NCBI GenBank assembly: GCA_002709405.1
Contig: PAQV01000034.1
Span: forward strand, 1 to 41,126
From: Paracoccaceae bacterium
GTDB taxonomy: Bacteria > Pseudomonadota > Alphaproteobacteria > Rhodobacterales > Rhodobacteraceae
DNA: 41,126 nucleotides
Direction: 5' to 3'
Both the position numbers and the translations under genes were made by a program. Within the stretch, counting starts at the first letter, position 1. Each line of letters opens with the position of its first letter. Shown piece after piece: positions 6,605 through 23,465 of the stretch. The notes under the pieces are model-generated. The model saw nothing but the letters and a program-made list of their open reading frames with translations. It did not search any database and was not told the origin of the DNA.

Positions 6605-6627
6605 GTCCCGAAATTGCCAAAGGACGG

Positions 6628-7012: not shown

Positions 7013-7016
<4 letters not shown>
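6840..7016 (-). CDS. DUF4169-like small basic protein
   Basis: 58-residue, highly charged, helix-forming protein beginning [18 protein letters not shown] and continuing with alternating Lys/Arg/Ala/Glu. This matches the small DUF4169 family often found beside fumC in Rhodobacterales (family recall, not searched). I place the start at a TTG (7014-7016) that overlaps the fumC stop codon (TTGA), which would make it translationally coupled to fumC; no in-frame ATG is available nearby. Its stop overlaps the start of the RHH gene. Function is unknown. The composition suggests a nucleic-acid- or ribosome-associated protein, but that is speculation. Confidence 0.75.
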
Positions 7017-8407
<1,391 letters not shown>

Positions 8408-8722
8408 CGGTCGCTCCCTTGCGCGATTACTCGCTTGGGGGTTTAGCCTCGTGCGGGGGCAGAGGCAATCTGACACTTGGCCGTCAGCGCTATCACCCGC
8501 GGCTGGCCAATCTGTGGCCCATATCTGGCCCGCGCTTCGGGCACCGGTGCTCAAGGTCTTTGCCGCTATCGTGACCAACGGCGCGCGCGGGGCGACCTAG
8601 AAAGGGCTTGAGTTCGCGCCACCGCTCGCGGACACTTGGCCGCGCGGGGCCGGATCCCGCTGTCCAACGGGCCGTCGGGCCCTATATTATGACCACGTGC
8701 GAGTGACGACAGGAGAGCGCCG
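8408..8722. other. Intergenic region between divergent fumC and exported protein
   Basis: 315 bases without a convincing gene. It must hold the divergent promoters of fumC and of the exported protein at 8723. A ribosome-binding site AGGAGAG lies just before 8723. I see no clear sigma-70 -35/-10 pair, riboswitch or repeat. Confidence 0.5.
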
Positions 8723-9277: not shown

Positions 9278-9319
9278 ATACCAGGCCAACCAGTCTTGCC
9301 CACTGGTCTAGTCTACGGG

Positions 9320-9339
9320 GCCCGGCCTGACGGCCGGGC
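9320..9339. terminator. Hairpin between convergent genes
   Basis: An 8-bp perfect stem (GCCCGGCC / GGCCGGGC) with a 4-nt loop sits between the convergent exported-protein gene and sspB. There is no strong T tract on either side, so terminator function is plausible but not certain. Confidence 0.5.
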
Positions 9340-9347
9340 GCAGGGCG

Positions 9348-9818
9348 TCACTTGCGGAACTTGTCCAGCGACACGACCTCGGCATCCGAACTGCGGGGCG
9401 CCTCGGTCTGGGGCGGATCCTCGGGTTCGGTCGGCTGGGGAGGCTCGGCGTCGGGGTCGTCATCTTCGGGCGATTCAAAGCGCAGGCCGAATTCGACCGA
9501 CGGATCAACGAAGGTCTTGATGGCGTCGTAGGGGATGTAGAGCGGCTCGGGCTGGTCTCCGAAATTCAGCGTGACGGCAAAGCCGTCGTCGGTGACATCG
9601 AGGTTTTCAAACCAATGCTGCATGACCACGGTCATTTCAGAGGGGTACCGGTCGGACAGCCAATCGGCCAGCAGGGCATCGGGATGTGTGGTGTCGAAGG
9701 TGATGAAGAAATGATGTGCGCCGGGCAGACCGTTGGCCTGAACATCCGTCAGGACGGACTTGATCAGTCCGCGCATGGCCGTGTGCATCAGATTTCCGTA
9801 GTCGATATTGTGTGACAT
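9348..9818 (-). CDS. sspB: SspB, ClpXP adaptor for ssrA-tagged proteins
   Basis: Adaptor that tethers ssrA-tagged proteins to the ClpXP protease. The 156-residue protein has the alpha-type SspB substrate-binding domain at about residues 1-110 (MSHNIDYGNLMHTAMRGLIK, then HHFFITFDT and the strand MTVVMQHWFENL). An acidic, proline-rich linker follows, ending in a short basic tail (VVSLDKFRK) that in SspB proteins is the ClpX-docking segment. The tmRNA gene that writes the tag, ssrA, lies only about 13 kb away, beside the integrated element. A short gap and a divergent-looking intergenic region separate sspB from chrA. The start gives the full conserved N-terminus. Confidence 0.93.
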   Translation of the reverse strand: MSHNIDYGNLMHTAMRGLIKSVLTDVQANGLPGAHHFFITFDTTHPDALLADWLSDRYPSEMTVVMQHWFENLDVTDDGFAVTLNFGDQPEPLYIPYDAIKTFVDPSVEFGLRFESPEDDDPDAEPPQPTEPEDPPQTEAPRSSDAEVVSLDKFRK

Positions 9819-11739: not shown

Positions 11740-12145
11740 GGGGGCTCCGTAATTCAATTTTCGAATGCATTAACTATATCGTGAAGAAGTGGGGATCCGG
11801 TGGCAAAATGCCAAGCCCCCAAGCGTCATGTCCGAGATCCATGTCGCCCCATGTCCCGGACCATCGGAACCCGAGCGCAATCCCTTGGGACACTGTCGAA
11901 AAGGGGGGAAATGCAGGCTTCTGCATGGACCAGACCTTTCCCTGAAAAAACAAAAGGAAGCGGTTTGCAACCAAGCGGCCGAATTCTGTGAACAGGTCGA
12001 GAACAAACCGGGCGTTTGTAAAACGAAAAAAGCGCCCATTAAAAAGGAAAGCCCCGACGCGCTGGCGGGCGCAGTCGAGGCTCAAATTCCACAGAAAGAC
12101 ACTCATCTTTCCCCACAAGAATCTCACAAAGCTTGGGAAAAGGCA
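11740..12145. other. Left junction region: host promoter, attL, element left end
   Basis: About 400 bases without a firm gene. Bases 11,740-11,909 are host DNA containing the promoter of the coiled-coil gene and, on the minus strand, the likely original ssrA terminator (C- and T-rich run just left of attL). Bases 11,924-12,145 are element DNA, clearly richer in A and T than its surroundings, with no recognised site. An open frame on the plus strand crosses the junction and joins the first element gene. Confidence 0.5.
11910..11923 (+). repeat. attL, left attachment core
   Basis: AATGCAGGCTTCTG, identical to the copy inside ssrA at 23,042-23,055 and in the same orientation. On the minus strand, the bases left of it continue as a C-run and T-run that would be the natural ssrA terminator before integration. 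Confidence 0.85.
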
Positions 12146-12526
12146 ATGTCATTTCATGACATGCCGAGCCCACAAAAGATGGCTCGCGTCTTTGGGTACG
12201 CCCTGACCTTGGGCGATAGCCCGGCTTGGCACGACTTCTCGCGCTTTGCCGAGATCTACTTGAGCGAAGAGGAACGGGCCAAGCTGGCGCATGCGGCGCT
12301 AAAGGCATTGGGCGGCAATGATCTTCTTCATGTAATAGCAGACGCCTTCAGCCGTGCAGGGCCTCCGCGCGAAGCATGGTACAACCCGTTGCCCGAGGCG
12401 CGAGAATGGGCGGATTGGGCGACGCCCGCAGAACGCGAGGCATATTGCCTGGCCGCCTTCGAGGCCATGCCATCGGCCCGACGAAAGGCTTTCCTCCATC
12501 ATGTGCAGGGGAGGGACGCAGCATGA
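12146..12526 (+). CDS. Element left-end gene 1, unknown function
   Basis: 126-residue soluble protein if started at the ATG at 12,146 (MSFHDMPSPQKMARVFG), which has AAAAGG just upstream. It is rich in Ala, Glu and aromatic residues and looks mostly helical; I recognise no domain. The same frame is open back to 11,789, across attL and into host DNA. A longer protein is therefore possible, but the upstream translation (Cys-rich, then Lys-rich) looks like accidental coding of the junction. The stop overlaps the next gene by ATGA (12,523-12,526), so the two are probably translationally coupled. In a satellite this end position often carries accessory, interference or defence genes, but nothing here identifies one. 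Confidence 0.6.
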   Translation: MSFHDMPSPQKMARVFGYALTLGDSPAWHDFSRFAEIYLSEEERAKLAHAALKALGGNDLLHVIADAFSRAGPPREAWYNPLPEAREWADWATPAEREAYCLAAFEAMPSARRKAFLHHVQGRDAA

Positions 12527-12753
12527 CCAGCCAAGAGCTTGATGAACTGCTGACCTTTCGCTGGCCCATGGTGATGCGGCGCGTCATGGCGGACGGTTCA
12601 GACGAATGGCTGAAGAACTTCGTCCGTTCCATCGCGAGGCAGGGAAAGCGACCGGCCTGGCGGCCGACCCAGAAGCAAGAGCAGATCATGTGCCGTCTCG
12701 TGTCCGAGCTGGGCACGGCGCCCAACACCGATCCCGAGGTCATCGAGGACTGA
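12523..12753 (+). CDS. Element left-end gene 2, unknown function
   Basis: 76-residue protein beginning MTSQELDELLTFRWPMVMRR. It is helical by appearance, with basic and tryptophan-containing segments (DEWLKNFVRSIARQGKRPAWRPTQKQ) that could bind nucleic acid or a protein partner. No known motif. The start overlaps the stop of the upstream gene, and no ribosome-binding site of its own is needed. It is followed by a 363-base gap with a large hairpin, so this two-gene unit probably forms its own transcript at the left end of the element. The function cannot be assigned. Confidence 0.6.
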   Translation: MTSQELDELLTFRWPMVMRRVMADGSDEWLKNFVRSIARQGKRPAWRPTQKQEQIMCRLVSELGTAPNTDPEVIED

Positions 12754-13116
12754 GGACGTGCGGCCTCGCGCGCATACGTGGGGCCTGCTGGTGTTACGGG
12801 GAAACGACGGTGCGCCGGCAGGAGTGAAGGGCAAACACGGGCAGGGATCAAATTGCCCAGGGCAGTCCGAAAGGTTGAAGCCCGATCCCCGGCACCGCGC
12901 TCAGGTGTCGCAAGTAGCAACCAACCGACCGGCAGGAGCGCATGACCGGACGGGCCCAAAGCGATGGACCGGCTCCGTTGAGCAGGATCTTCACGCGGAG
13001 GGCGTAGGGACTGCCACGCTTCGCGGCGTGGGCAGTCGTCCTATGCCCTTCGCTCCGAACCTCACCATTGAGCAGAGCTCATCTGGTGCAACGTATGAAC
13101 AAGAGAGGAAAGCGAT
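12754..13116. other. Non-coding gap with large hairpin, upstream of packaging genes
   Basis: 363 bases in which open frames on both strands have no ribosome-binding site, no recognisable domain and unlike composition. It holds the long imperfect hairpin at 12,995-13,053, flanked by an 8-bp direct repeat TTGAGCAG (12,978-12,985 and 13,068-13,075). Position ahead of terS makes it a candidate place for a packaging (cos or pac) site or a structured RNA. Confidence 0.5.
12995..13053. repeat. Long imperfect inverted repeat
   Basis: The outer arms AGGGCGTAGG and CCTATGCCCT pair with one G-T wobble. The inner arms GACTGCCACGC and GCGTGGGCAGTC pair with one bulged G. The loop is TTCGCG, and the base extends a few more pairs outward (12,995-12,998 with 13,050-13,053). 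That gives a stem of more than 20 bp. No T tract follows on either strand, which argues against a simple terminator. Confidence 0.75.
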
Positions 13117-13404
13117 ATGCCGAAGAACGAAATTGTCTCATTCGACGCCAACAAGTGGCAGGAGCTGACAGACACCGATGTAACGAGCCTATGCCTACAG
13201 AACATTGGCGCTGGTTCGGTGCACATCATGGCCACGACCAACGCCACGCAACCGTCGAACTTGGGCGGGGCAAAACGGTTCGAGCCGGGGGATATTCTCG
13301 CGGCGAATGTGGATCTTGCCGATCTCTATCCTGGCGTGACTGCCGGGTACCGGGTCTGGGCATTTGGTGAGCTTCCGGGATCTGTCTCGGTGTCTCACGC
13401 ATAG
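13117..13404 (+). CDS. Small virion-associated-like protein, unknown function
   Basis: 95-residue protein with a beta-rich pattern: TSLCLQNIGAGSVHIMATT, then GGAKRFEPGDILAANV and a C-terminal GYRVWAFGELPGSVSVSHA. Short phage proteins with an N-terminal 'signal in the strand, polar loop, then W(A)...G.V.VS' layout are common next to head genes, and decoration or tail-attachment roles have been proposed for some. I use this only as a weak analogy. GAGAGG lies 9 bases before the ATG. It sits directly ahead of terS on the same strand, so it may belong to the packaging transcript. Confidence 0.6.
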   Translation: MPKNEIVSFDANKWQELTDTDVTSLCLQNIGAGSVHIMATTNATQPSNLGGAKRFEPGDILAANVDLADLYPGVTAGYRVWAFGELPGSVSVSHA

Positions 13405-13501
13405 CTGGCCAAGAAATCGGGTCCTTCCCGGCCAGAACGTATACGGGTCGGCGTAGCCCGGAAGATCAGCCGCTGCAAAAATTCCATAAGGGTAAGAAAT
13501 C

Positions 13502-13993
13502 ATGAGGATTTTTTCCGAGTTGGAGCTTGGAGACGAGCCGCTTCACCGGATCGGCGGCAAGGATTTGTGCGCCCTCCTGGACATTTCCTCCGGTGCGCTG
13601 ACGGACCTGAAGAAGCGCGATATCGCAGTGCACCTCGCCCATGACTCCTATGACCTGGTGGAAACCGTCCGCCGCTACACCGCCCACCTTCGCAGCACGG
13701 CTGCTCGCTGGGGGGATTCGGACCAGGTGCCGCAGCTCACAGCCGAAAAAGCCCGCCTCGCCAAGGAACAGGCGGATGCTCAAGCGCTGAAGAACGCGAA
13801 GGCCAGAGGCGAGCTGGTGGACGCAGCCGAGGTGGAGCGCACTTGGTCGGACGTTCTCCGCCAGGTACGCGCGCGGATCCTCTCAACCCCGCCGCGCCTG
13901 CGGCAGATCCTCAACCTGTCTGCCGCCGATGCTGACCTGATCGACCGCGAACTGCGGGACGCCCTTTCGGAGCTTGGCCATGCCGACAATTGA
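13502..13993 (+). CDS. Terminase small subunit, Nu1-like
   Basis: 163-residue DNA-recognition subunit of the packaging motor. The N-terminal part has an HTH-like segment (GGKDLCALLDISSGALTDLKKRDIAV), as expected for lambda Nu1-type proteins that bind the cos region. The middle is a helical dimerisation stretch. The C-terminal half, EKARLAKEQADAQALKNAKARGELVDAAEVERTW, followed by VRARILSTPPRL, is characteristic of alphaproteobacterial phage small terminases and contacts the large subunit. The 3' end overlaps the start of terL by 14 bases, the usual coupled arrangement. Pairing with a GpA-type large subunit suggests cos packaging. Confidence 0.85.
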   Translation: MRIFSELELGDEPLHRIGGKDLCALLDISSGALTDLKKRDIAVHLAHDSYDLVETVRRYTAHLRSTAARWGDSDQVPQLTAEKARLAKEQADAQALKNAKARGELVDAAEVERTWSDVLRQVRARILSTPPRLRQILNLSAADADLIDRELRDALSELGHADN

Positions 13994-15755
13994 AGAAATC
14001 CGCGCCTCGGCCCTGCGCGCCCTGGTCCCGCCGCCGCGCCTTCGCCTGTCCGACTGGATCGAATCCGAGATCCGCTTGCCCGAGGGCGTGAGCGCCCAGC
14101 CTGGCCCCGTGCGCCTCTGGCCATTTCAACGCGAGATCGCGGATGCCATTGGAGATCCGCTGATCGAACGCGTGACCCTGATCAAACCCGTGCGCGTCGG
14201 TTTCACGACGCTTTTGACCTCCGCCGTTGCCTCCTTCGTCGCCAACGAGCCCGCGCCCATTCTCTGCTTGCTACCGGCCGAAGCCGATTGCCGCGATTAC
14301 GTGGTGAGCGACGTCGAGCCGATCTTTTCCGCTTCCCCGGCTGTGGCTGATGCCCTGGGCGATGACCGCGAAGAGGGGGAGCGCAACACGCTCCTATCCC
14401 GCCGCTTTGCCGGCGGATCGCTGAAGGTGGTCGCCGCGAAGGCGCCGCGCAATCTCCGCCGGCACAATGTCCGGATCCTCTTCTGTGATGAAGTAGATGG
14501 GATGGTCGCCACGGCCGAGGGGTCGCCGATCCTGCTGGCCGAGCGCCGCACGCTGTCTTTCCCGGATCGCAAGATCGTCCTTGGGTCGACCCCCGTCCAC
14601 GAGGAAACGAGCCACGTCTTGCGAGCTTATGCCCAGTCAGACGCCCGGATCTTCGAGGTTCCGTGTCCGAGCTGCGGAGCCTTCGAGGAAGTTTCCTGGG
14701 CCCAGATCATATGGGATGAAGGCAAGCCGGAGACTGCCCGCTGGTGCTGCCCGCATTGCCGGGAAGAGATCGAGGAACGGCACAAGCCGGCCATGGTGGC
14801 GGCAGGCGCCTGGCGGGCCACCCGGCCGGAAGTGAAGAGCCATGCGGGCTTCCGGCTGAATGCCCTGGTCAGCCTTCACGCCAACGCGGCATGGGGCAAG
14901 CTGGCGGAGGAGTTCATCAGTGCAAAAGATGACCCGACCATGCTTCAGACCTTCGTGAACACGATCCTTGGTCAGGGCTGGCGCGGCGATGGCGACGAGC
15001 TGGACGACGAAGAGCTTGCGGGCCGGGGAGAAAACTGGGGGCTGGATGCCGTACCGGCTGATGTTCTGGCGGTGACCGCCGGTTGCGACGTGCAGCACGA
15101 CAGGATCGAGACCACGTTCATCGGGTGGGCCGAAGACGGCGCCGCCTTCGTTCTCGGCCACCGTGTGACATGGGGAGCATGGGACGACGATGCCACCTGG
15201 TCAGAGTTGGACGGGCTCCTGAAACAGACCTTCCCGCACGACCTGGGCGGCCGGATCGGGCTGGATGCCGTGGCGATCGACGCGGGCGACGGCACCACGA
15301 TGCACACGGTCACGGCGTTCTGTCAGCCGCGCACCCGCCGCAAGGTCATGGCGATCAAAGGTGCGCCAGGGAACCGCCCGTTGATCGAGCGTTCCGCGTC
15401 CCGGACGAAGACGGGCGCCAGGCTGTGGATTGTCGGCGTGGACACCGGAAAGACCCTGATCTTCGGCCGACTGGCGCAAGGCACGTCAATACGCGTGTCG
15501 GCCGATCTTCCCCGCGTCTGGTATGAACAGCTTGCCTCGGAGCGTGCCGTGACCCGCTACCGTCGCGGCCAGCCTGTCCGCAGCTTCGAGCGTGTGCCAG
15601 GGCGCCAGGCTGAAGGCCTCGATTGCACCGTCTATGCCTTTGCCGCCCGACAGATCGTCAACCCGGATTGGGAACGGCGACGGGCCGAGCTGGCGCACAA
15701 GACGGTGCCGAAGAAATCTCCACCGAAGCTCCGGTCGGACTGGATGCGGAGGTGA
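13980..15755 (+). CDS. Terminase large subunit, lambda GpA family
   Basis: 591-residue ATPase-nuclease that cuts DNA and pumps it into proheads. Order: N-terminal ATPase with a deviant Walker A (KPVRVGFTT, residues 69-77), as is normal for GpA proteins, and Walker B ILFCDEVD (166-173). A CxxC pair (CPSC at 229-232 and CPHC at 257-260) forms a likely zinc knuckle between domains. The C-terminal nuclease domain has acidic VTAGCDVQHDRIE and the later AVAIDAGDG. ATG at 13,980 has GGAG 8 bases upstream; a TTG two codons earlier is less likely. Length is normal and uninterrupted. The next head gene is 2 kb away, with a regulatory cassette between. Confidence 0.95.
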   Translation: MPTIEEIRASALRALVPPPRLRLSDWIESEIRLPEGVSAQPGPVRLWPFQREIADAIGDPLIERVTLIKPVRVGFTTLLTSAVASFVANEPAPILCLLPAEADCRDYVVSDVEPIFSASPAVADALGDDREEGERNTLLSRRFAGGSLKVVAAKAPRNLRRHNVRILFCDEVDGMVATAEGSPILLAERRTLSFPDRKIVLGSTPVHEETSHVLRAYAQSDARIFEVPCPSCGAFEEVSWAQIIWDEGKPETARWCCPHCREEIEERHKPAMVAAGAWRATRPEVKSHAGFRLNALVSLHANAAWGKLAEEFISAKDDPTMLQTFVNTILGQGWRGDGDELDDEELAGRGENWGLDAVPADVLAVTAGCDVQHDRIETTFIGWAEDGAAFVLGHRVTWGAWDDDATWSELDGLLKQTFPHDLGGRIGLDAVAIDAGDGTTMHTVTAFCQPRTRRKVMAIKGAPGNRPLIERSASRTKTGARLWIVGVDTGKTLIFGRLAQGTSIRVSADLPRVWYEQLASERAVTRYRRGQPVRSFERVPGRQAEGLDCTVYAFAARQIVNPDWERRRAELAHKTVPKKSPPKLRSDWMRR

Positions 15756-15836
15756 GATAGGTCAGGACGCGCCTTCGCAACTACCAGCATCAGCGAAAAG
15801 CGTCCCCGTTAGTCGGCGAGTGGGCAAACCCCGACA

Positions 15837-15875
15837 GCGCGCGGCCCCAATAACCTTTTCAGGGGCGCGGCGCGC
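15837..15875. terminator. GC-rich hairpin between terL and the Arc repressor gene
   Basis: Arms GCGCGCGGCCCC (15,837-15,848) and GGGGCGCGGCGCGC (15,862-15,875) pair with a 2-nt bulge around a 13-nt loop, between the convergent terL and minus-strand Arc genes. No T tract, so function as a terminator is likely only from position. Confidence 0.5.
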
Positions 15876-15877
15876 AT

Positions 15878-16213
15878 TTACCGCTTGATCTGACTGAGTT
15901 CGTACGTCTCAGGGGCCAGCGACGTTGTAGTGATAACGGTCCCGTCCGACTGCAAAACGACCGTAATCGTCTTCTCGCCTCGCTCAATTTTTCGCGGAAC
16001 GCCGTCATTCAGCACCATGTCAACGATGTCTTCCATCGCGGCGTCCGTCACCAGAACCGCCGGTTCGGGATACTTGTAGAGCAATGTGCCGACGATTTCC
16101 GCGTTCATGCTTCTGCCGTTTTCCTCGGCTGCAGATCGAATGCGATCACGTAGCCCATCCGGAAGACGGAGCATGAATTTGTCGTTTAGGGTTCGATTCT
16201 GTTCTTCAGCCAT
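15878..16213 (-). CDS. Arc-family DNA-binding repressor (long form)
   Basis: 111-residue protein. The N-terminal 50 residues form an Arc/Mnt ribbon-helix-helix domain: beta strand DKFMLRLPDGLRDRIR, then helices with NGRSMNAEIV. The C-terminal extension (VLVTDAAMEDIVDMVLN ... TITVVLQSDGTVITTT) is probably an oligomerisation or sensing part. It is divergent from a second Arc protein with nearly the same DNA-contact strand, and the operator between them is a 15-bp inverted repeat plus a third half-site 9 bp from this gene's start. Autoregulation is therefore very likely. Acting as the element's master repressor, in place of a CI-type repressor that is absent, is an inference. Confidence 0.88.
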   Translation of the reverse strand: MAEEQNRTLNDKFMLRLPDGLRDRIRSAAEENGRSMNAEIVGTLLYKYPEPAVLVTDAAMEDIVDMVLNDGVPRKIERGEKTITVVLQSDGTVITTTSLAPETYELSQIKR

Positions 16214-16221
16214 GAATGTAG

Positions 16222-16286
16222 CCTAAGGACATCTTTCCCTCTTGCTGCAATGGCGTCCTTAGGACATGATATCCTAAGGACGCCAT
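16222..16286. promoter_or_regulatory. Operator region for divergent Arc genes
   Basis: A perfect 15-bp inverted repeat ATGGCGTCCTTAGGA / TCCTAAGGACGCCAT (16,250-16,264 and 16,272-16,286) has a 7-nt spacer. A further CCTAAGGAC copy lies at 16,222-16,230. The three CCTWAGGAC boxes lie between the divergent Arc genes, covering the expected promoters of both. Confidence 0.85.
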
Positions 16287-16300
16287 CTCAGGAGGATCCA

Positions 16301-16468
16301 ATGACCCGACAAGCCCAAGACAAATTCATGCTCCGTCTTCCGGACGGGTGGCGTGAGGTCATCAAGGAACTGGCGCAGCGAAACCGCCGCTCGATGAACC
16401 AGGAGATCTTGGCCGCACTGGAAGGCCAGGTTGAGAGCGAAATGCAAAATACCCCCCAGAAAGGATGA
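16301..16468 (+). CDS. Arc-family DNA-binding protein (short form)
   Basis: 55-residue Arc/Mnt-type ribbon-helix-helix protein, essentially only the DNA-binding domain: strand DKFMLRLPDGWREVIK, then NRRSMNQEILAALEG. The strand that reads DNA is almost identical to the divergent long Arc protein, so the two probably compete for, or share, the same CCTWAGGAC boxes, possibly as antagonists. A strong ribosome-binding site AGGAGG lies 6 bases before the ATG. It starts a plus-strand run with two unknown small genes and leads toward the HTH gene at 17,315. The rightmost operator arm ends 14 bases before its start. Confidence 0.88.
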   Translation: MTRQAQDKFMLRLPDGWREVIKELAQRNRRSMNQEILAALEGQVESEMQNTPQKG

Positions 16469-16472
16469 AGCT

Positions 16473-16802
16473 ATGAACTTGATTGAGTTCGCAAAAATGG
16501 CGCCAGTCAACCAAACGCCTGAAGAATTCATCGCCATGATGAACGAAGTCCTGCCGCTGGATGAGGTGAAAGACCTTACAGAGGAAGAAGGGCTGGCGTT
16601 CTTCAGCGCAGTGCAATGGCTCTACGATTTCGCGATCCTACTGACCGAGTTTCATCAGCAAGACAGTGAAATGGAAGCTCCGGACGGACACGACATGGCG
16701 CCATGCCTGCCCGGGACCAGGGGGCCGTTCATCGAAAATCTTCTGACGAGAGGCCCCGGAAAGCCCGACTTCACGCCGCTCACGCACTTCGGCTTGAAGT
16801 GA
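16473..16802 (+). CDS. Regulatory-cassette gene, unknown function
   Basis: 109-residue acidic protein starting MNLIEFAKMAPVNQTPEEF, 4 bases after the Arc stop, with AAAGGA ahead of the ATG. The first 80 residues look helical and acidic (MNEVLPLDEVKDLTEEEGLAFF, then LLTEFHQQDSEME). The C-terminal part is proline-rich and has a cysteine. I recognise no domain. As the second gene of the short-Arc operon it might be an anti-repressor or partner of the Arc proteins, but this is only positional reasoning. Confidence 0.65.
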   Translation: MNLIEFAKMAPVNQTPEEFIAMMNEVLPLDEVKDLTEEEGLAFFSAVQWLYDFAILLTEFHQQDSEMEAPDGHDMAPCLPGTRGPFIENLLTRGPGKPDFTPLTHFGLK

Positions 16803-16876
16803 AATGGGCCGCATGGTGCAGCAACACCTTTCCGGCCCTGACATGAAATCATTCCCTGATCAGAAGGACATCAATC

Positions 16877-17146
16877 ATGAAGGTCGATCCTAGCACTTGC
16901 CCCTACGGCGGCCGGGCACTGCCCATCGCTCTGACCGCTACTGCTCAAATCACGTCGCTGGCGCGTTTCGGCATCGAAGCCGCGCAATTCGCGCCAGGCG
17001 GCACACTAAAGCCACATGATTTTGAGGCGCTGTTCGAGGTCATCTATCGACTAGCAGCGGAGGCAGTAACCGACGCTGACGAGATGTATGAGAGCCTAGA
17101 AGAATTCAGGAATGGCCCTAAAAATCGGACCAGCGACACCCGATAG
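16877..17146 (+). CDS. Regulatory-cassette gene, unknown function
   Basis: 89-residue protein beginning MKVDPSTCPYGGRALPIALTA, with GAAGGACATC ahead of the ATG. It is mostly helical with an acidic C-terminal helix (AVTDADEMYESLEEF) and no recognised motif. It follows the 109-residue gene by 74 bases. Codon choice and base composition here are less GC-biased than in the head genes, like the rest of the 15.9-17.3 kb cassette, consistent with a separately acquired block. Confidence 0.6.
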   Translation: MKVDPSTCPYGGRALPIALTATAQITSLARFGIEAAQFAPGGTLKPHDFEALFEVIYRLAAEAVTDADEMYESLEEFRNGPKNRTSDTR

Positions 17147-17228
17147 ATCTTGCAATCTGGCGAGCAAGCACGGGCCAACATTGCTTGCCGGATCATTGTT
17201 CGCCCACGAAGCAGCTCCCCAAGAAAAG

Positions 17229-17310
17229 AAGTCATTTTGCCAGAATTGACATAGGGCTTCACAGTGTGCTCAATCTTATAAGACTCAATGTGAACCTTAA
17301 TAAGGGTAGG
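17229..17310 (+). promoter_or_regulatory. Promoter/operator A, ahead of HTH-portal-capsid operon
   Basis: Contains TTGACA (17,246-17,251), a -10-like TATAAG (17,277-17,282) and the boxes TTCA-CAG-TGTG (17,258-17,268) and CTCA-ATG-TGAA (17,284-17,294) on either side of the -10. It aligns with promoter B at 21,431-21,510 in blocks: AAGTCATT.TG.CA..ATTGA (17 of 21 identical), CTTATAA, and CTCAATGTGA followed by TAATAA. The -35 to -10 spacing is not canonical (25 bp), so the exact promoter elements are uncertain, but the shared region is clear. Confidence 0.75.
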
Positions 17311-17314
17311 TTGA

Positions 17315-17785
17315 ATGCTGGATCTCACAAGATATACCGTTGGTTCGCAGGAGGCCGCAGACATGTTGGGCTGGCCTCTCGCAACCTTCAAAACGCATCG
17401 CACTCGCAACGAGCTGCTGAAGCGTAAAACTGGTCGCGGGCGCGCGGCCGAGTTCAATTTCGGCGACATCATGGCAGCTCACGTTGCCAAGCGCCTCATC
17501 GAGATGAAGCTGCAAGCGCCGGCAGCGTGTCGGATCGCGAACAAACTGTCCCCCCTGTCGAGCTTCGTGATGGGCGAGCCAATTCAGGTTTTCATTCGCG
17601 ATGGCGAAATCTCCTACACAGGCAACCCGGACGAAGACATCAGCATCCTGATTCCGCTCGAAAAGATCGGCTGGCAGGTCGCCGAGTACTTCGCTGAAGG
17701 CATCGCTGCGGAATACGGGGTTGACGCTGCGCGCGAGGCCAAGGCGCGTTTCCATCGGCAGGTCGCCGAGAAACGGGGGGAATAG
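17315..17785 (+). CDS. MerR-like helix-turn-helix regulator
   Basis: 156-residue protein. The N-terminal HTH is clear: YTVGSQEAADMLGWPLATFKTH, a winged-helix/MerR-like excisionase-type fold, followed by a short basic wing (LKRKTGRGRAAEFNFGDI). The rest is helical with a small beta segment (PIQVFIRDGEISYTGN). It is first in the head operon: its stop overlaps the GTG start of the portal (TAGTG). Its promoter region A shares operator boxes with the promoter of a smaller HTH paralogue (21,521) with the same A..LGWP motif. It probably binds those CTCA-N3-TGAG boxes and controls head and integration operons, as activator or repressor. Confidence 0.75.
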   Translation: MLDLTRYTVGSQEAADMLGWPLATFKTHRTRNELLKRKTGRGRAAEFNFGDIMAAHVAKRLIEMKLQAPAACRIANKLSPLSSFVMGEPIQVFIRDGEISYTGNPDEDISILIPLEKIGWQVAEYFAEGIAAEYGVDAAREAKARFHRQVAEKRGE

Positions 17786-19119
17786 TGGAAACCCGCCAGG
17801 TCATTCGTGCCGTCCAGCGAGGGCTTTCCAAGCTCCTGCGCCGCTCCGGGATTGAAGCCGGCAGCGGCGGCCGGCGTTGGGACGGCGCTTCGACCATCGG
17901 CAACCCGCAGGCATCCACCCTTGCGGCGAGAGGGCCGGCAAAGAACCGCGCCGCCGCCGCGTCGATCAACACCCCGTTCGGGCAGCGCGCCGTTGAAGCC
18001 TGGACCTCCGCCCTGGTCGGGAAGGGCTGGCAAGCGCGGTCCCAGCACCCGGACAAGGACATCGCGCGCCGCCTGTCGTCCGCCTTCGAAGCCCTCGCCA
18101 ACCCGCTGTTGCCCATCATCGCCCGTGCGCTGGTCCGTGATGGCGAGGCCATCGTTCGAACCCGGCTGAACTCCGAAGGTCACTTCCGGGTCCAGCTGAT
18201 CCCTTCGGACCAACTGGACCCGACCTTGAGCCGGGACTTGGGCGGCGGTGCGCGCATCGTCTCGGGGATCGAATTCGACGCGGAAGACGAGGTGGTCGCC
18301 TATCACATTCTCCCCGAAGCACCCGGCACCCCGTTTGCGGTTTTTTCGTCACCCGTCCGCGTCCCCGCCCGCGACATCTTCCATGTCTTCGATCCGATGT
18401 TCCCCGGTCAGGTGCGCGGCCTGTCCTGGTTGGCCCCGGTCCTGACCAAGCTGCGCGACCGTGACGAAGCCTCGGATGCGATGTTGATGCAGCTCAAGGT
18501 CGCAAGCCTCCTGACGGCCTTCATCAGGGATCCGGACGGAAGTCTGGCCGGTTTCGAAGGCGAGACGGACGGCAACGCGCTCAGTGTCGCCCTGGAACCC
18601 GGCGCAGCGCGGATCCTGCCGCCCGGCGCCGATGTCACCATGTCCAATCCGCCCGCCGGATTGTCCGACGCAGTGACCTTCCTGAAAGCGCAGGACCGGG
18701 AAATCGCCGCCGGTCTCAACCTCACCTTCGAGCAACTGACGGCTGATCTGTCCGAAGCAAATTACTCTTCCGCAAGGGTGGGGCTGCTGGAATTCCGCCG
18801 CCGGGCCGAAATGCTTCAGAAACTGTTGGTTGAAGGACAATTCCTCTCCCCGCTCTGGCGCCGCTGGATCGAGCTTGAAGCGCTGTCGGGCCGCATCGAA
18901 GCGAACGGCGCCGCACTGGAAGACTACATGGCTGTCCGGTTTGTCCCGCCCGGCTGGCAGTGGGTTGATCCCCAGAAAGAGGTTTCAGCCGACGTGAAGG
19001 CCATCGAAGCGGGGCTGAAGAGCCGGGAAGAAGTGGTGGCCGGTCGCGGCCGCGACATCGACGAACTGGATGAAGAGCGCGCCAGGGATCGCCGCGCCGA
19101 AAATGGGGGTGAAGCATGA
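17785..19119 (+). CDS. Portal protein, lambda family
   Basis: 444-residue portal that forms the dodecameric DNA channel at one vertex of the head. It has the family pattern: N-terminal RAVQRGLSKLLRRSG, then NTPFGQRAVEAWTSALVGKGW and QLIPSDQLDPTLSR. The core crown/stem follows, with PARDIFHVFDPMFPGQVRGLSWLAP and the C-terminal SSARVGLLEFRRRAEMLQKLL. It starts with GTG, overlapping the stop of the HTH gene. The stop overlaps the next gene by ATGA (19,116-19,119). Length is close to the lambda gpB family norm without the internal scaffold, consistent with the protease being fused to the capsid gene here. Confidence 0.93.
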   Translation: METRQVIRAVQRGLSKLLRRSGIEAGSGGRRWDGASTIGNPQASTLAARGPAKNRAAAASINTPFGQRAVEAWTSALVGKGWQARSQHPDKDIARRLSSAFEALANPLLPIIARALVRDGEAIVRTRLNSEGHFRVQLIPSDQLDPTLSRDLGGGARIVSGIEFDAEDEVVAYHILPEAPGTPFAVFSSPVRVPARDIFHVFDPMFPGQVRGLSWLAPVLTKLRDRDEASDAMLMQLKVASLLTAFIRDPDGSLAGFEGETDGNALSVALEPGAARILPPGADVTMSNPPAGLSDAVTFLKAQDREIAAGLNLTFEQLTADLSEANYSSARVGLLEFRRRAEMLQKLLVEGQFLSPLWRRWIELEALSGRIEANGAALEDYMAVRFVPPGWQWVDPQKEVSADVKAIEAGLKSREEVVAGRGRDIDELDEERARDRRAENGGEA

Positions 19120-20882
19120 CGCTACACATCCGAAGCCTGGCGCCCGCACCGTCTACCGTCGATCTGAACGCCCGCACCGTGGAAGCCATCGTGAGCACCG
19201 GTGCAGATACTCCCCGGCCGGGCTTCGTTGAGCGCCTGGACCTGACCGGCGCCGATCTGACCCGTCTGATCGGGGCGCCCATTCTGGACGGGCACCGGGC
19301 CGCATCCACGCGCGACCAGCTCGGGGTGATCGAGGCGGCAGAGCTTCGACCCGAAGGTATCTGGGTCAAAATGAGATACCGCAGCAATGCCGCCGCCGTG
19401 TCGGTCCTGTCCGATATCGCCGAAGGCACGCTGCGCGGTCTGTCCATCGGCTACCAGGTGGCCGAGTGGAAAGAGGCGAGGGACGGGAACAGACGCCTTC
19501 GTATCGCGACACGCTGGGCACCCATCGAAGTGTCCGTCGTGCCTGTCCCGGCTGATCCGGGCGCACATTTCCGAGCAGGAGAAAGCAGCATGGAACCCGA
19601 AGACCAGGTGGTCGAAACCACCCCCGTTACCCCCACCGTGACCCGCGCGGCGGTCAATGCCGAGATCCGCCAGATGGCTGAGACCGCCGGCCTGACCCGT
19701 GCCTGGGCAGACGCCCAGATCGACGCTGAAACCAGCGCCGAAGACGCGCGCACCGCCGCCTTCGAGGCCATGCGCCAGCGCGGCGCCGAGACCAGCACCC
19801 GCACCACAAGGGCGCAGATCCTGGTCGATCACACGGACCCGGCCGTGATCGCGACGCGGGCCGGTGAAGCGCTCTTCGCCCGTTCCCATCCGGGGCACGA
19901 TCTGTCCGAGGCGGCACGCCCCTTCGCGGCAATGACCACCATCGACCTGGGCCGCGACTGCCTCCGCCGCGCCGGTATCAACATCACCGGCATGGCGGCG
20001 GAAACGGTCATCACGCGGGCGCTGAACACCACCTCGGACTTTCCGCTGATCATGGGCGATGCGGTCGGCCGAGAACTGCGGCGCACCTATGATACGGCAC
20101 CGTCGGGTGTCAGGATGCTGGCGCGCCAGACCACGGCCCGCGATTTCCGGGCAAAGCGGGCCATTCAGTTTGGTGAAGGCCCCGAGCTGAAGAAGGTCAA
20201 CGAAAGCGGCGAATTCAAACACGGCTCCATCGCGGAATCGGCAGAATCATACAGCGTGGAAACTTTCGGCCGCATCTTCAGCATTTCCCGGCAGGCCCTG
20301 GTCAACGACGACCTGGGGGCCTTCATGCAGGTTCCCGCGAAACTCGGCAGGTCGGCCCGCGAGTTCGAAGCGGCGCAGCTCGTGGCGAAGCTGGTCGAGA
20401 ACCCGGCCATGAGCGATGGCCTCACTGTCTTTCATGTCGATCACGGTAACCTGTCGGTCACGGGCGCGGCTATGGCCATCACCACCCTGTCTGGCGCACG
20501 CAATGCGATGCGTCGGCAGAAAGGCTTGGCCGGAGAACTGATCAACGCAGCGCCGTATGCCGTCGTTGTTCCGCCGGAGCTCGAAACCCTGGCCGAACAG
20601 CTGCTTACCCAGATCAATGCGACGAACACGGATGAGGTCAACCCGTTCGGAAAACTCATCCTGGCGGTCGAACCGCGCCTGACGGACACCGCAGCTTGGT
20701 ACGTCGCAGCCGATCCGGCAACCATCGACGGCTTGGAATACGCCTACCTGGAAGGGGCACCCGGCCCGCAGATCGAAACGCGCCAGGGCTTCGAGGTTGA
20801 CGGCATTCAGATCAAGGTTCGCCTGGACTTCGGCTGCGGATGGATCGACCACCGCGGCTGGTACAAGAACGCGGGCGCATAA
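19116..20882 (+). CDS. Prohead protease fused to major capsid protein
   Basis: 588-residue fusion. Residues 1-155 are an S78/U35 (HK97-type) prohead protease with catalytic His60 (LDGHR) and Ser110 (RGLSIGY); Glu138 in WAPIEVSVV is a plausible third partner. Residues about 175-240 are a helical linker that could act as a scaffold (delta) domain. Residues about 250-588 are a major capsid protein of the gpT/HK97-like type, with SYSVETFGRIFSISRQALVNDDLGAF, ELINAAPYAVVVPPELETLA and the final IKVRLDFGCGWIDHRGWYKN. Fusion of protease and capsid occurs in some phages and lets one transcript set the ratio. It starts within the portal stop (ATGA). Confidence 0.92.
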   Translation: MTLHIRSLAPAPSTVDLNARTVEAIVSTGADTPRPGFVERLDLTGADLTRLIGAPILDGHRAASTRDQLGVIEAAELRPEGIWVKMRYRSNAAAVSVLSDIAEGTLRGLSIGYQVAEWKEARDGNRRLRIATRWAPIEVSVVPVPADPGAHFRAGESSMEPEDQVVETTPVTPTVTRAAVNAEIRQMAETAGLTRAWADAQIDAETSAEDARTAAFEAMRQRGAETSTRTTRAQILVDHTDPAVIATRAGEALFARSHPGHDLSEAARPFAAMTTIDLGRDCLRRAGINITGMAAETVITRALNTTSDFPLIMGDAVGRELRRTYDTAPSGVRMLARQTTARDFRAKRAIQFGEGPELKKVNESGEFKHGSIAESAESYSVETFGRIFSISRQALVNDDLGAFMQVPAKLGRSAREFEAAQLVAKLVENPAMSDGLTVFHVDHGNLSVTGAAMAITTLSGARNAMRRQKGLAGELINAAPYAVVVPPELETLAEQLLTQINATNTDEVNPFGKLILAVEPRLTDTAAWYVAADPATIDGLEYAYLEGAPGPQIETRQGFEVDGIQIKVRLDFGCGWIDHRGWYKNAGA

Positions 20883-21097
20883 TGGCCCTGGCGGTCTCCG
20901 AGCTTGAAACCCTGCGCGACGAATTGGTCAGATCGCGCGCGCAGGGTATCCGCGTGGTCTACTACGATGGCCACCGGACCGAATACACGTCGGATGCCGA
21001 AATGGCCTCTGCCATCGCTGACCTGGATCGCCGAATTGCGGCGGCAGGATCGTCCCGCCCTCGCACCGTATCATTCAAGACATCCAAGGGGTTCTGA
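20882..21097 (+). CDS. Head-tail joining protein, gpW-like
   Basis: 71-residue protein (MALAVSELETLRDELVRSRAQG) with the gpW-like layout: N-terminal helix, a short beta hairpin (RVVYYDGHRTEYTS), C-terminal helix (ADLDRRIAAAG), and a basic tail. In lambda, gpW stabilises DNA in the filled head and forms the joining point for the tail. The start overlaps the capsid stop (TAATG, 20,880-20,884). Keeping this connector in an element with no tail genes is what a tail-borrowing satellite needs: an interface for a foreign tail. Confidence 0.85.
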   Translation: MALAVSELETLRDELVRSRAQGIRVVYYDGHRTEYTSDAEMASAIADLDRRIAAAGSSRPRTVSFKTSKGF

Positions 21098-21098
21098 C

Positions 21099-21425
21099 AT
21101 GAAGAACTATATCCAAGCCGGCAACGTGATCACCTTCACGGCCGCTGAGACCATCGTTTCCGGGCAGGGCGTTCTGCAGGGCGCCTTCTTCGGTGTAGCT
21201 GCAACCGACGCCGCTTCGGGCAATGACTTCGAAGCCGCCGTGACGGGCGTCTTCGAACTGCCCAAGGCCGCAGGCGCCCTCACCAAGGGCCAGAAGGTCT
21301 ATTGGAACACCGCCAACGCCAACGTGACTGGCACGGCATCCGGCAACACGTTGATTGGCGCTGTCACCGAAGCGGCAGCAGACGCCGCAACCACGGCCGT
21401 CGTACGGCTCAACGGGACCGTCTAA
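21099..21425 (+). CDS. DUF2190 capsid decoration-like protein
   Basis: 108-residue DUF2190-family protein: MKNYIQAGNVITFTAAETI, then GQGVLQGAFFGVAATDAASG, FEAAVTGVFELPKA, GQKVYWNTANANVT, and a C-terminal ATTAVVRLNGTV. The family is beta-rich and has capsid-cement and decoration members that strengthen the shell. It begins 1 base after the gpW-like stop, and is the last head gene: the next genes belong to the second promoter. A terminator is not obvious after it, only an A/T-rich stretch. Confidence 0.85.
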   Translation: MKNYIQAGNVITFTAAETIVSGQGVLQGAFFGVAATDAASGNDFEAAVTGVFELPKAAGALTKGQKVYWNTANANVTGTASGNTLIGAVTEAAADAATTAVVRLNGTV

Positions 21426-21430
21426 TACGT

Positions 21431-21510
21431 AAGTCATTCTGACATCATTGATTTAAAACTCATAGTGAGTCTTATAATTAGGCTCAATGTGAGGCTAATA
21501 AAAGGCAAGG
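21431..21510 (+). promoter_or_regulatory. Promoter/operator B, ahead of HTH-AlpA-integrase operon
   Basis: A perfect -10 TATAAT (21,473-21,478) follows TTGATT (21,448-21,453) at 19-bp spacing. Two palindromic boxes flank the -10: ACTCA-TAG-TGAGT (21,458-21,470) and CTCA-ATG-TGAG (21,483-21,493), with centres 24 bp apart. The region aligns block by block with promoter A (17,229-17,310). Confidence 0.85.
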
Positions 21511-21520
21511 GGCTGTAAGC

Positions 21521-21700
21521 ATGGAACGCGCTCTCTACATGTACGCCAACGACGTGGCTCAAGCCCTCGGCTGGCCTTGCTGTAACACTGCGTTCTGGAA
21601 CTGGGCGCACACCTTCCGCGCCTCCGACTACGCTCCGGGCGGCTTCCTGAATGTCCGGAAGCTGCCCGAAGAAGCCCGCAAGACGCTGGGGGTGATGTGA
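21521..21700 (+). CDS. Small HTH-like protein, paralogue of the head-operon regulator
   Basis: 59-residue protein MERALYMYANDVAQALGWPCCN... . The segment YANDVAQALGWPCCNTAFWNWAH parallels the HTH of the 156-residue regulator (EAADMLGWPLATFKTHR), and both genes follow the same promoter module, so this is probably a shortened relative, perhaps with one HTH only. The stop overlaps the next start (TGATG, 21,698-21,702). The ribosome-binding site is AAGGGG, about 8-12 bases before the ATG. It may compete with the longer regulator for the boxes. That is an inference. Confidence 0.65.
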   Translation: MERALYMYANDVAQALGWPCCNTAFWNWAHTFRASDYAPGGFLNVRKLPEEARKTLGVM

Positions 21701-21939
21701 TGGCCGGAAACCGCGCAATATTTGGGGACCGGCCGCCGTCGTTTGTTTCGAAAGCCACCCTGGCGGCAGAGCTGGATATGAGCGAATCGACCGTGGACAG
21801 CTATGTTCAGCGCGGGCTTCTTCCGCGTCCGATCAAGCGCGGCGGGTCGGTGCGCTGGTGCTGGGCTGAGGTGGTGGCAGCCATGAATGCGGAAGCATCT
21901 GGCGAAGACCCCTTCATGAGCGGCGTCAATAATGTCTAA
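21700..21939 (+). CDS. AlpA-like excisionase/regulator
   Basis: 79-residue winged-helix DNA-binding protein: SFVSKATLAAELDMSESTVDSYVQRGLLPRPIKRGGSVRW. This is the AlpA/excisionase pattern, with a helix-turn-helix then a wing containing GLLPRPIKRGG and WCWAEV. AlpA proteins activate or direct integrase action in phages and satellites. The start overlaps the upstream gene and the stop overlaps the integrase start by 8 bases (21,932-21,939), so the three form one operon under promoter B. It is likely the excision factor of the element. Confidence 0.85.
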   Translation: MAGNRAIFGDRPPSFVSKATLAAELDMSESTVDSYVQRGLLPRPIKRGGSVRWCWAEVVAAMNAEASGEDPFMSGVNNV

Positions 21940-23008
21940 AGTGCAGTTGCCTCGCCATGTTCACCGTGTGGTCTCGCGCGGCCGTGAATACTACTACTAC
22001 CAGGAAGGCCGGGGTACGCCGCAGGCCGGGGAGCGCATCCGGCTCCCCAACGATCCGCAAACGCCGGAATTCTGGCACGCAGTGCGCCAGGCGCAGGGCG
22101 TCACGGGGCCGACGCCCACAGGTACGATTGGCGCTCTTATTGACGCCTATGAAGTCGCATGGCCGACGCTTCAGCGCCCGCTGAGCGAAGGGACACGGAA
22201 GCAGTACAGGCGGCACCTCAAGCTTGTCCGCGCGGCGTGGGGAGACCTGCAAGCCGACCAGCTTCGACCACGGCATGTAGACGCGTTGATCCGCAAAATT
22301 GGCGCGGAAAAGCCGGGGACAGCGAACAACGTACTCAGCGCTCTTCGGGCAATGGTCGGCTGGGCGACCGGTCCCGTCGAGCTACTGCACCACAACCCAA
22401 CCCAAGGGGTTCAGGCCTTCGGGAAGGGGGAGGGGCATGTGCCTTGGTCCTCGGAGCAGATGGAATTCGCGGAGGCGAATTTCACCGGCATGCTTCGGCG
22501 CTTCTATTTCCTCAGCCGATACACGGGCCAGAGGATCAGCGACGTGGTACGCCTGAACCCGAATGACGTGGACGACGGGGGCTTCTGCCTGCCGCAGAAG
22601 AAGACAGGGGTGAAGCCCTGGTGCCCGATCTTCCCGGAACTGGAAGCTGAAATGGCGACATGGCCAAGGCGTCCGGGGCCGTACCTTCTTCAGGAGGATG
22701 GCAAGAGCCAGGGGAAGCCGTTCAGCACAAACCAGATGTGGAAGGCATTTGACCGTGAGCGTGCGAAGCACCCGATCCTTGCCGGGGCTGTTCCCCATGG
22801 ACTGCGCGCGAATGCCGTCATCAGCCTCAGAGCGGCTGGCAACACGGCGCTACAAATCTCGGACATGGTGGGCATGTCAGTTGAGATGATCGAAGGATAC
22901 TGCCGCCACGCGGACCGAAAATCCAGCGGGCAGGCCGTCTTGAGGGAGTATCGAGAACGGAAACAGGACGAAACTGTAAAACTACTGGAAAATGGAAAGC
23001 GAAAATGA
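21932..23008 (+). CDS. Tyrosine integrase of the element
   Basis: 358-residue site-specific recombinase that acts on the ssrA site. The N-terminal arm-binding and core-binding domains (about residues 60-160) precede a catalytic domain with Arg201 (YTGQRISDVV), Lys224 (QKKTG), His289 and Arg292 (PHGLRANAV) and nucleophile Tyr323 (EMIEGYCRHAD). The position usually held by His/Trp just before the Tyr helix is Met315 (VGMSVEMI), a deviation seen in some active integrases. It reads toward ssrA, ends 34 bases before attR, and is convergent with ssrA, the typical geometry for a tRNA- or tmRNA-targeting integrase. Confidence 0.95.
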   Translation: MSKVQLPRHVHRVVSRGREYYYYQEGRGTPQAGERIRLPNDPQTPEFWHAVRQAQGVTGPTPTGTIGALIDAYEVAWPTLQRPLSEGTRKQYRRHLKLVRAAWGDLQADQLRPRHVDALIRKIGAEKPGTANNVLSALRAMVGWATGPVELLHHNPTQGVQAFGKGEGHVPWSSEQMEFAEANFTGMLRRFYFLSRYTGQRISDVVRLNPNDVDDGGFCLPQKKTGVKPWCPIFPELEAEMATWPRRPGPYLLQEDGKSQGKPFSTNQMWKAFDRERAKHPILAGAVPHGLRANAVISLRAAGNTALQISDMVGMSVEMIEGYCRHADRKSSGQAVLREYRERKQDETVKLLENGKRK

Positions 23009-23041
23009 CTACGGATCAACGGCTTATGTCTGGGAAAGAAG

Positions 23042-23055
23042 AATGCAGGCTTCTG
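23042..23055 (+). repeat. attR, right attachment core within ssrA
   Basis: AATGCAGGCTTCTG, identical to attL. It covers the 3' arm and part of the loop of the last ssrA hairpin, so integration leaves the mature RNA sequence unchanged. Confidence 0.88.
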
Positions 23056-23351
23056 TTGCCAGGTGCCTGCGGACCCCGCCTTACGCGGCTAGGCGCAAGG
23101 ACTTAGATTTCGGTCTTGTTACTGCTTACGCAGCAACGGCGACCGGAGCACGATTGTCGTTGGCAATTGTACTATTTTCGCCGGTAACGGTGGCAGACAG
23201 CCGAGACAAAGCTAACACCTTTAGACGTTCGTCGATCCTGTTTCGGCCCCATGATCCCCCAACGAGGGAGCTTTGGTGGAGCCGCCGGGTACCGCCCCCG
23301 GGTCCGATCCGCTTATTACGTGCGCGTTTATGTCCATAGCTCCGAGGAGCG
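23045..23351 (-). ncRNA. ssrA: Circularly permuted two-piece tmRNA
   Basis: The acceptor piece comes first, ending GGCTCCACCA with its final A at base 23,274, preceded by a T-arm-like GACCCGGGGGCGGTACCC. A short spacer of about 23 nt follows (23,251-23,273). The coding piece then begins GGGGCCGAAACAGGATCGAC at 23,250, the classic tmRNA 5' end. The tag frame is at 23,129-23,164 (ANDNRAPVAVAA) with stop TAA at 23,126-23,128. The coding piece ends in hairpin GCAGGC...GCCTGC (23,045-23,070). This gene order is the alphaproteobacterial permuted form. The tmRNA rescues stalled ribosomes and adds the tag read by SspB-ClpXP. The exact mature 5' end of the acceptor piece is estimated. Confidence 0.95.
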
Positions 23352-23356
23352 ACTTG

Positions 23357-23385
23357 AAAGTAAGCCCATACGGACCCAAGTTCAA
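23357..23385 (-). promoter_or_regulatory. Sigma-70 promoter of ssrA
   Basis: On the minus strand, TTGAAC (23,380-23,385) and TACTTT (23,357-23,362) are separated by exactly 17 bases. Transcription would start near 23,350, just ahead of the acceptor piece. Confidence 0.7.
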
Positions 23386-23465
23386 GCACGGCGCGTTGCA
23401 AAAGTACGGGTTTTCTGGTTTAGTGAACCATAATGCTTGGGTAAGACTGAGTGGGAGGAGCAGAG

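Follow-up and report, generated by a model that had tools for sequence, protein, structure and literature searches.

Is a chromosomal element that codes for a phage head, with no recognised tail gene, a working satellite or what is left of a tailed prophage? The question is raised by the window analysed here, a stretch of 41,126 nucleotides of contig PAQV01000034.1 from a Paracoccaceae bacterium (assembly GCA_002709405.1), in which an earlier note, made from the letters alone, had described a capsid-forming, tail-less phage satellite at 11910-23055, integrated into ssrA. The observation of a head-coding, tailless element at ssrA is confirmed by our analysis. Judging from its genes and from those of its relatives, the element is very probably an integrated, intact, capsid-forming phage satellite, which would use the tails of helper phages.

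Organization and integration site

The 11.1-kb element is bounded by 14-bp direct repeats, AATGCAGGCTTCTG, both copies of which are exact, as first described (Table 1); this is the sole exact word longer than 11 bp common to 22900-23450 and 10-22 kb. The right copy forms the gene end of a transfer-messenger RNA (tmRNA) of the permuted alphaproteobacterial type, placed by ARAGORN at 23035-23366 on the minus strand. Integration into ssrA is supported by this position and by an empty site in another genome of the same genus (see below), with the correction that the gene is a permuted tmRNA. The G+C content is 61.8% in the element, and 66.6% and 66.0% in its flanks.

From left to right, the element comprises u126, u76, u95, a cos-like site, the small and large terminase subunits (TerS and TerL), a divergent pair of Arc-like genes, two genes without assignment, u156, portal, protease-capsid fusion, gpW, cement, u59, an AlpA/MerR-like protein and a tyrosine integrase. 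All 17 coding frames scanned are open, and eight have no clear match in profile scans. Open frames and profile matches bear out the intact terminase, portal, protease-capsid, connector, decoration and integrase genes of the earlier note, while its AlpA gene carries a weak label (phrog_66 excisionase/regulator 7e-7, MerR under the cut-off). The absence of tail, tape measure, baseplate and lysis genes holds as well: no such protein, nor any replication protein, was recognised among the 17 open reading frames (ORFs) in Pfam and PHROG profile scans.

A family of tailless islands

The capsid protein found matches at E up to 1e-20 in 73 of the 295 genomes from its own bacterial family, tailed prophages among them; further matches lie in 131 IMG/VR stretches (80 kept) and in 547 stretches of a bacterial and archaeal set with one genome per species (80 kept). 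By title, 77 of the 80 per-species stretches kept are from Alphaproteobacteria, two are titled 'Proteobacteria' only and one (L170) is titled a gammaproteobacterial metagenome-assembled genome. The hosts, whose genus placement draws partly on general knowledge, include Rhodobacterales, Stappia, Bosea, Bradyrhizobium, Sinorhizobium, Sphingobium, Roseomonas and others, and large secondary replicons carry relatives too (such as one at 66% in Paracoccus versutus). An identical copy of the element is held by an 11.8-kb IMG/VR contig (L021).

We examined 101 loci (the window and L101-L200), 93 of them distinct. Boundaries were accepted for 68, which represent 61 distinct islands after removal of 7 duplicates: 53 lie at tRNA or tmRNA genes and 8 are delimited by repeats of at least 20 bp, the chance level being set by repeats of at least 12 bp in 26 of 365 random pairings. 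Their sizes are similar, with a median of 11.7 kb, 60 islands within 9.7-13.3 kb and one of 16.7 kb. The usual order is TerS, TerL, a variable region, portal, capsid, gpW, cement and integrase; it differs in a few islands, such as L137 and L138, where cement precedes the capsid gene. In 57 of the 61, the gpW gene stands behind the capsid gene, its median distance from the capsid start being 1.76 kb. A search of related genomes for the same gene order with conserved boundaries and no tail genes, the check proposed with the original description, is thus answered by the 61 distinct islands and, at ssrA itself, by a tailless relative of 11.5 kb in Gemmobacter megaterium (L131).

Divergence, apparent mobility and selection

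In G239, a genome of the same genus, the ssrA end with its 14-bp core adjoins DNA of the window's left flank and the element is absent, so that the site is empty. The same genome carries the element elsewhere, beside tRNA-Cys (locus L101), where a 30-bp tRNA repeat bounds 13.7 kb; the excess length comes from two IS21-like genes at the left end, one IstB-like and the other probably coding for a transposase. The core proteins of the two copies are 83-99% identical, and the integrases are different, the best match of the window's integrase at the G239 element being only 27%. Element DNA is 89-93% identical over three long aligned blocks, against 76-89% for the four longest blocks of left-flank host DNA, and in synonymous divergence (dS) 13 genes of the element range over 0.05-0.58 and ten of the host over 0.36-1.29; by these measures the element is less diverged than its host. 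The ratio of non-synonymous to synonymous divergence (dN/dS) is 0.03-0.33 in the 13 element genes, with the lowest values in cement (0.03) and TerL (0.05). Taken together, identity, dS and dN/dS indicate that the element genes are under selection and that the element appears to move.

These data bear on the proposal that the host has domesticated a head-only element, for instance as a gene-transfer or delivery device, with loss of mobility. Such hosts do keep domesticated phage parts, since the window's genome has one gene transfer agent (GTA) cluster, but the integrase frame is intact, the site is empty in a relative, a second site is occupied within the genus and the element is less diverged than its host; we regard domestication as extremely unlikely. 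Moreover, the empty ssrA site, the purifying selection and the similar island sizes together argue for a functional satellite against a deletion remnant.

Head genes and ancestry

The GpA/lambda-type head module of the earlier note is recovered by profile, with a GpA-type TerL, a Nu1-like TerS and a lambda-family portal. In Pfam the capsid matches PF25209 and PF10124, and PF05065 gave no match at E up to 0.05; compared with solved structures, the capsid profile matches Mu GpT-type capsids. In the same kind of comparison TerL found no sequence match and gpW a single chance-level one (E 0.46). The gpW-like adaptor shares 33% identity with the protein annotated as gpW-like in phage RcKemmy, and gave no alignment with the W protein of phage 813R6. 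No HNH endonuclease was matched in the 17 ORFs by Pfam scans; to our knowledge, a GpA-type terminase needs none. By scaling from known values, a genome of 10-13 kb in an HK97-fold head suggests a triangulation number of T=3 or T=4.

Compared with 50,697 phage records, the capsid found 122 matches, all below 60% identity, and each of the 40 listed is below 39%; 11 are records of Rhodobacter phages. The whole element has no near DNA match among phages and plasmids. In a capsid tree of 106 rows, the 74 satellite rows group with 7 of 8 related rows (support 90, not starred), 79 of the grouped rows have support 99, and all 24 tailed-phage rows fall outside. RcKemmy carries in one cluster TerS, a GpA-like TerL, gpW, portal, a protease-capsid fusion (38.8%) and cement, followed by gpFII and a full tail, so that the element resembles the head-coding half of such a phage. 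RcKemmy differs in being tailed and 41 kb long, with genes for gpFII, tail and lysis, and in both RcKemmy and 813R6 gpW lies between TerL and portal, whereas in the islands it lies behind the capsid gene.

That the element is a prophage which lost its tail block and is decaying would account for head genes homologous to those of tailed phages such as RcKemmy and for the missing tail, and real remnants do occur among the relatives (L112). This explanation is nevertheless very unlikely, because 61 distinct islands share a similar order and size with exact attachment (att) repeats at different genes, the frames are intact with dN/dS far below 1, the capsids group together away from the sampled phages, and the position of gpW is unlike that in the two phages examined.

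Predicted packaging signal

A conserved non-coding block lies directly before terS in 30 loci (24 distinct) whose TerS is at least 55% identical to that of the window. With up to 3 mismatches allowed, its core, GGGTCCTTCCCGG at 13419, is present in 48 of 54 loci; the corresponding counts, again out of 54, are 5, 3 and 4 in three controls and 3 within TerL. These 54 of the 93 loci remain after those with no TerS detected on the plus strand, or with less than 150 bp before it, were dropped; 8 duplicate loci were left out, and at distant loci the TerS start was extrapolated from BLAST matches. The core lies about 79-88 bp upstream of terS in the majority of near relatives, with distances of 37-186 bp elsewhere, and occurs exactly only twice in the 5.39-Mb genome, the window's copy included. 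The lambda record has the same core with one mismatch, 30 bp before the lambda cos end, and after the element's core follows a GGG-rich, partly symmetric stretch positioned like cosN. RcKemmy has no match within 3 mismatches in the 200 bp upstream of its TerS. By analogy with lambda, the terminase of the element would cut at this cos-like site. What appears to be new here is a predicted cos signal of the lambda kind ahead of the small-terminase gene, recurring across the family.

Could the element instead be a classical satellite that steals the helper capsid, its head genes only redirecting that of the helper? One report describes the satellite-plasmid TG93, with a capsid gene, a protease and a small terminase, as thought to disturb helper heads (PMC13230959). 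The element has a complete and conserved set of packaging and head genes together with a cos-like signal of its own, and capsid theft is accordingly very improbable.

Tail genes and candidate helpers

We compared 34 queries, consisting of tail-side and lysis proteins of RcKemmy, an Escherichia coli lambdoid phage, the genome's own prophage and its own GTA, with 62 islands. Tail-tube, tape-measure, baseplate and lysis queries gave zero matches; apart from cement, to which query Ec_6328 belongs as judged by the place of its matches, only gpFII (L121) and DUF6441 (L136, L142) were matched. As positive controls, two RcKemmy-like prophages were matched by 16 and 15 of the 34 queries. Relatives with the same element plus a tail module at the same locus, which the earlier note had named as the sign of a deletion remnant, did not appear in this search, although by profile L156 and L162 each carry a tape-measure-like protein (see below).

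The gpFII gene lies between TerS and TerL in two lineages (L102/L121 and L023/L142), and DUF6441 occurs in two (L023/L142 and L136). Relatives of DUF6441 are found in isolated phages (11 Rhodobacter phages and four others) and, at 42-49% identity, in nine prophage stretches of the same bacterial family, a kinship that points to RcKemmy-type helpers for the members carrying it.

A satellite could also borrow the tails of the host GTA rather than those of a helper phage. The window's genome has a GTA tail cluster and no match to PF05354, PF09718 or PF10145 at E up to 0.001, and RcKemmy and this GTA have four distal tail proteins in common, at 40-55% identity. However, the genome also has an HK97-type prophage with tail genes, and the sole tail-side matches of the 34 queries in the islands (gpFII, DUF6441) resemble RcKemmy-type phages, which makes GTA tails a highly unlikely source.

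Several loci were noted alongside. The HK97-type prophage (L212 and L213, G000:C54) is a possible resident helper, and the GTA cluster is L214 (G000:C64). RcKemmy-like prophages with tail genes, L222 and L223, occur in genomes G153 and G065, which also carry satellites L102/L121 and L104/L124, forming candidate helper pairs. At L112 (10010-10497), RcKemmy-like tail chaperone and tube fragments adjoin a short portal frame, in what looks like a real prophage remnant of a related genome.

Comparison with known satellites

The published systems are compared here as the cited papers describe them. Capsid-forming phage-inducible chromosomal islands (cf-PICIs) have their own terminases, portal, protease, capsid and connector, and use helper tails (PMC11389934, PMC10690885, PMC13230959). 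A review states three radiations of their capsids (PMC11389934); the 900 published capsids that were treed are of PF05065, other capsid types not being excluded there (PMC13230959), and the packaging module includes an HNH endonuclease (PMC10690885). Like them, the element codes for its own capsid, protease, portal, connector and both terminases, has no recognised tail gene within its boundaries, and has an integrase and a chromosomal att site. It differs in a Phage_capsid_4 capsid fused to the protease instead of PF05065, in a GpA/Nu1 terminase without an HNH match, in its occurrence in Alphaproteobacteria, and in having no recognised primase or closure gene, the latter being coded by TG54 (PMC13230959).

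The Streptomyces satellites MulchRoom and MiniFlayer also code for heads and packaging with no obvious replicase, unlike the element in their direct terminal repeats and virulent helpers; they are described as having no significant homology to cf-PICIs (PMC10690885). The Vibrio satellite-plasmids TG54 and TG93, of 15.8 and 11.1 kb, resemble the element in their own head genes and lack of tail genes, and differ in being episomal, described without an integrase and with PF05065 and PF03864 capsids (PMC13230959).

The cf-PICI-like reading of the earlier note is supported by the family, the empty site and the selection, and in functional outline the element agrees with a cf-PICI. Two qualifications apply: the PF05065 capsid and the HNH gene were not found, and no head-closure gene was recognised. 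We therefore file the element as cf-PICI-like, outside the published set, a separation drawn from descriptions of cf-PICIs only. What appears new, from sequence comparison, is a satellite lineage across Alphaproteobacteria that differs from described cf-PICIs in capsid family and in having no HNH. The titles and abstract openings retrieved, among which few subscription papers are represented, gave no account of such elements in Rhodobacterales, Rhodobacteraceae, Alphaproteobacteria, Rhodobacter or roseobacters, nor of tailless prophages.

Replication genes

A replication gene is usual in PICIs. The lack of primase and helicase remarked in the earlier note holds for the window's element and not for the family: an AAA_25 helicase is present in relatives L106, L107 and L029, and primase proteins in L115, L118, L110 and L038. 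Among 27 tabulated islands, u76 occurs in 12 (the window and 11 others), 10 of them with u126, and a helicase or primase cluster in 5; no island has both u76 and such a gene, an exclusion expected by chance in about 4% of draws, a figure that ignores relatedness. The replication label rests on three protein clusters, and short initiators may be missed. It may be that u76 serves replication. In the left arm, a search for iterons or origin repeats found one 10-bp pair only, present also in L101.

A terminal repeat of 20-300 bp, marking a circular form, was found in none of 38 IMG/VR contigs. One of 10.1 kb (L038) has its primase gene after gpW, in a permuted order as an excised form might show, and no integrase was seen there.

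Proposed cycle and weight of the evidence

The repeats and the empty site show that the integrase places the element at the ssrA end. For the later steps we propose a course based on gene content, in which induction may be governed by the two divergent Arc-like proteins and the MerR-like regulators. Excision by the integrase would be followed by copying through helper or host replication, and the element's own Nu1/GpA terminase would cut the concatemers at the lambda-like cos just upstream of terS, giving a unit of about 11.1 kb that starts with terS, passes the integrase and the joined att and closes with the left-arm genes. The DNA would fill the element's own small head of portal, protease-capsid and cement, gpW would finish it, and a helper phage would then give the head-closure protein and the tail.

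Several points weigh against a functional satellite. Particles, induction and transfer are predictions from the genes, and no replication gene was recognised in the window's element. Head closure gpFII (PF05354) has no match in the element or in the rest of the host genome, so that the helper would need to give more. PF05354 is not significantly commoner in satellite-bearing genomes (10 of 20 against 80 of 275, p = 0.075), 11 of these 20 having been classed because the capsid matched over its full length, and only part of these 11 having been inspected. No boundary was accepted for 32 of the 93 distinct loci: none was found for 30, and two were dropped by hand, namely L101, left out of the 61 because of its repeat distance and delimited later, and L114, whose repeat lies inside the element. 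The tree of capsids was built quickly, and its phage branches are long. Finally, a profile scan of 132 representatives of non-core proteins, of which the 25 most frequent of 97 matched families are listed, found tape-measure profiles in two islands (L156 12939-14852 and L162 6174-8825), and the IMG/VR relative L054 has a tape-measure-like protein between TerL and portal (5567-8554); not every family member is thus wholly free of tail genes.

Beyond the single element, the islands may form an unnamed alphaproteobacterial satellite lineage that arose from lambda/GpT-type heads independently of PF05065 cf-PICIs, with heads ending at gpW, closure and tail taken from RcKemmy-type or other helpers, and a sub-branch that swapped the helicase for u126-u76; we hold this wider proposal to be evenly balanced between right and wrong. 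If true, satellites that make heads and borrow tails would be regular inhabitants of alphaproteobacteria, among them roseobacters, Paracoccus, Stappia, Bradyrhizobium and Sphingobium, and would descend from at least two types of head. The division between owned and borrowed head-tail parts would become testable through the end of the heads at gpW and through the differing left arms (helicase, primase, u126-u76, or DUF6441 with gpFII), and such islands may stand in databases as incomplete prophages.

Left arm, regulators and additional genes

Homologues of the small genes were sought among 68 elements, which include IMG/VR copies of some same elements (Table 1). The AlphaFold2 model of u156 has a mean predicted confidence (pLDDT) of 94, and its best PDB match is the MerR-type CvkR (E 1.7e-3, template modelling score 0.44); the model suggests a MerR-like regulator, no fold match reaching E 0.001. 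The fold search with u76 gave a best match of E = 2, and no lead. The putative regulators of the element are the Arc-like pair and this MerR-like fold, a Stl-like master regulator being a feature of TG54 (PMC13230959).

Table 1. Predicted features of the element and its integration site, in window coordinates.
Feature	Position	Strand	Evidence or distribution
attL, left 14-bp direct repeat	11910..11923	+	exact repeat; core then ssrA in empty G239 site
u126	12146..12526	+	left-most gene; homologues in 19/68 elements; also upstream of relatives' AAA_25 helicases
u76, small three-helix protein	12523..12753	+	homologues in 15/68 elements
u95	13117..13404	+	no homologue in other 67 elements searched
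cosQ-like motif, 83 bp before TerS	13419..13431	+	motif search; comparison with lambda record
predicted cosN cleavage region	13445..13456	+	by eye; analogy with lambda
terminase small subunit, Nu1-like (TerS)	13502..13993	+	phrog_57 8.7e-27; Pfam Phage_Nu1 slightly under cut-off
terminase large subunit, GpA type (TerL)	13980..15755	+	PF05876, PF20454; Pfam 1.7e-85 and 3.9e-81
Arc-like ribbon-helix-helix regulator	15878..16213	-	PF03869 7.5e-13
second Arc-like regulator, divergent from first	16301..16468	+	PF03869 9.1e-12
u123	16473..16802	+	among 68 elements, window's element and L101 only
u89	16877..17146	+	among 68 elements, window's element only
u156, MerR-like regulator fold, upstream of portal	17315..17785	+	relatives in 25/68 elements
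portal, lambda family	17785..19119	+	PF05136 1e-74
prohead protease fused to major capsid protein	19116..20882	+	PF04586 (Peptidase_S78), PF25209 (Phage_capsid_4); phrog_4523 4e-181
gpW-like head-tail adaptor	20882..21097	+	phrog_2545 2.8e-15
capsid cement/decoration protein (Phage_cement_2)	21099..21425	+	PF09956 2.4e-28
u59	21521..21700	+	among 68 elements, window's element and L101 only
AlpA/MerR-like excisionase or regulator (weak)	21700..21939	+	phrog_66 7.3e-7; MerR below cut-off
tyrosine integrase	21932..23008	+	phrog_1 2.1e-30
attR, right 14-bp direct repeat, ssrA end	23042..23055	+	exact repeat, ssrA annotation
host ssrA (permuted tmRNA), integration target	23042..23389	-	Rfam RF01849, 291.9 bits

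Two relatives carry further genes. In G239, a second tyrosine integrase gene lies immediately outside the left tRNA-Cys repeat (L101 245-1273), perhaps from a tandem island. In L110, whose capsid is 47% identical, a C5 methylase, an MTaX1/HNH protein and an Eco57I-type methylase lie between TerL and portal (6094-9537) and a CoiA-like nuclease lies behind cement (13385-14746); these extra genes are probably defence cargo.

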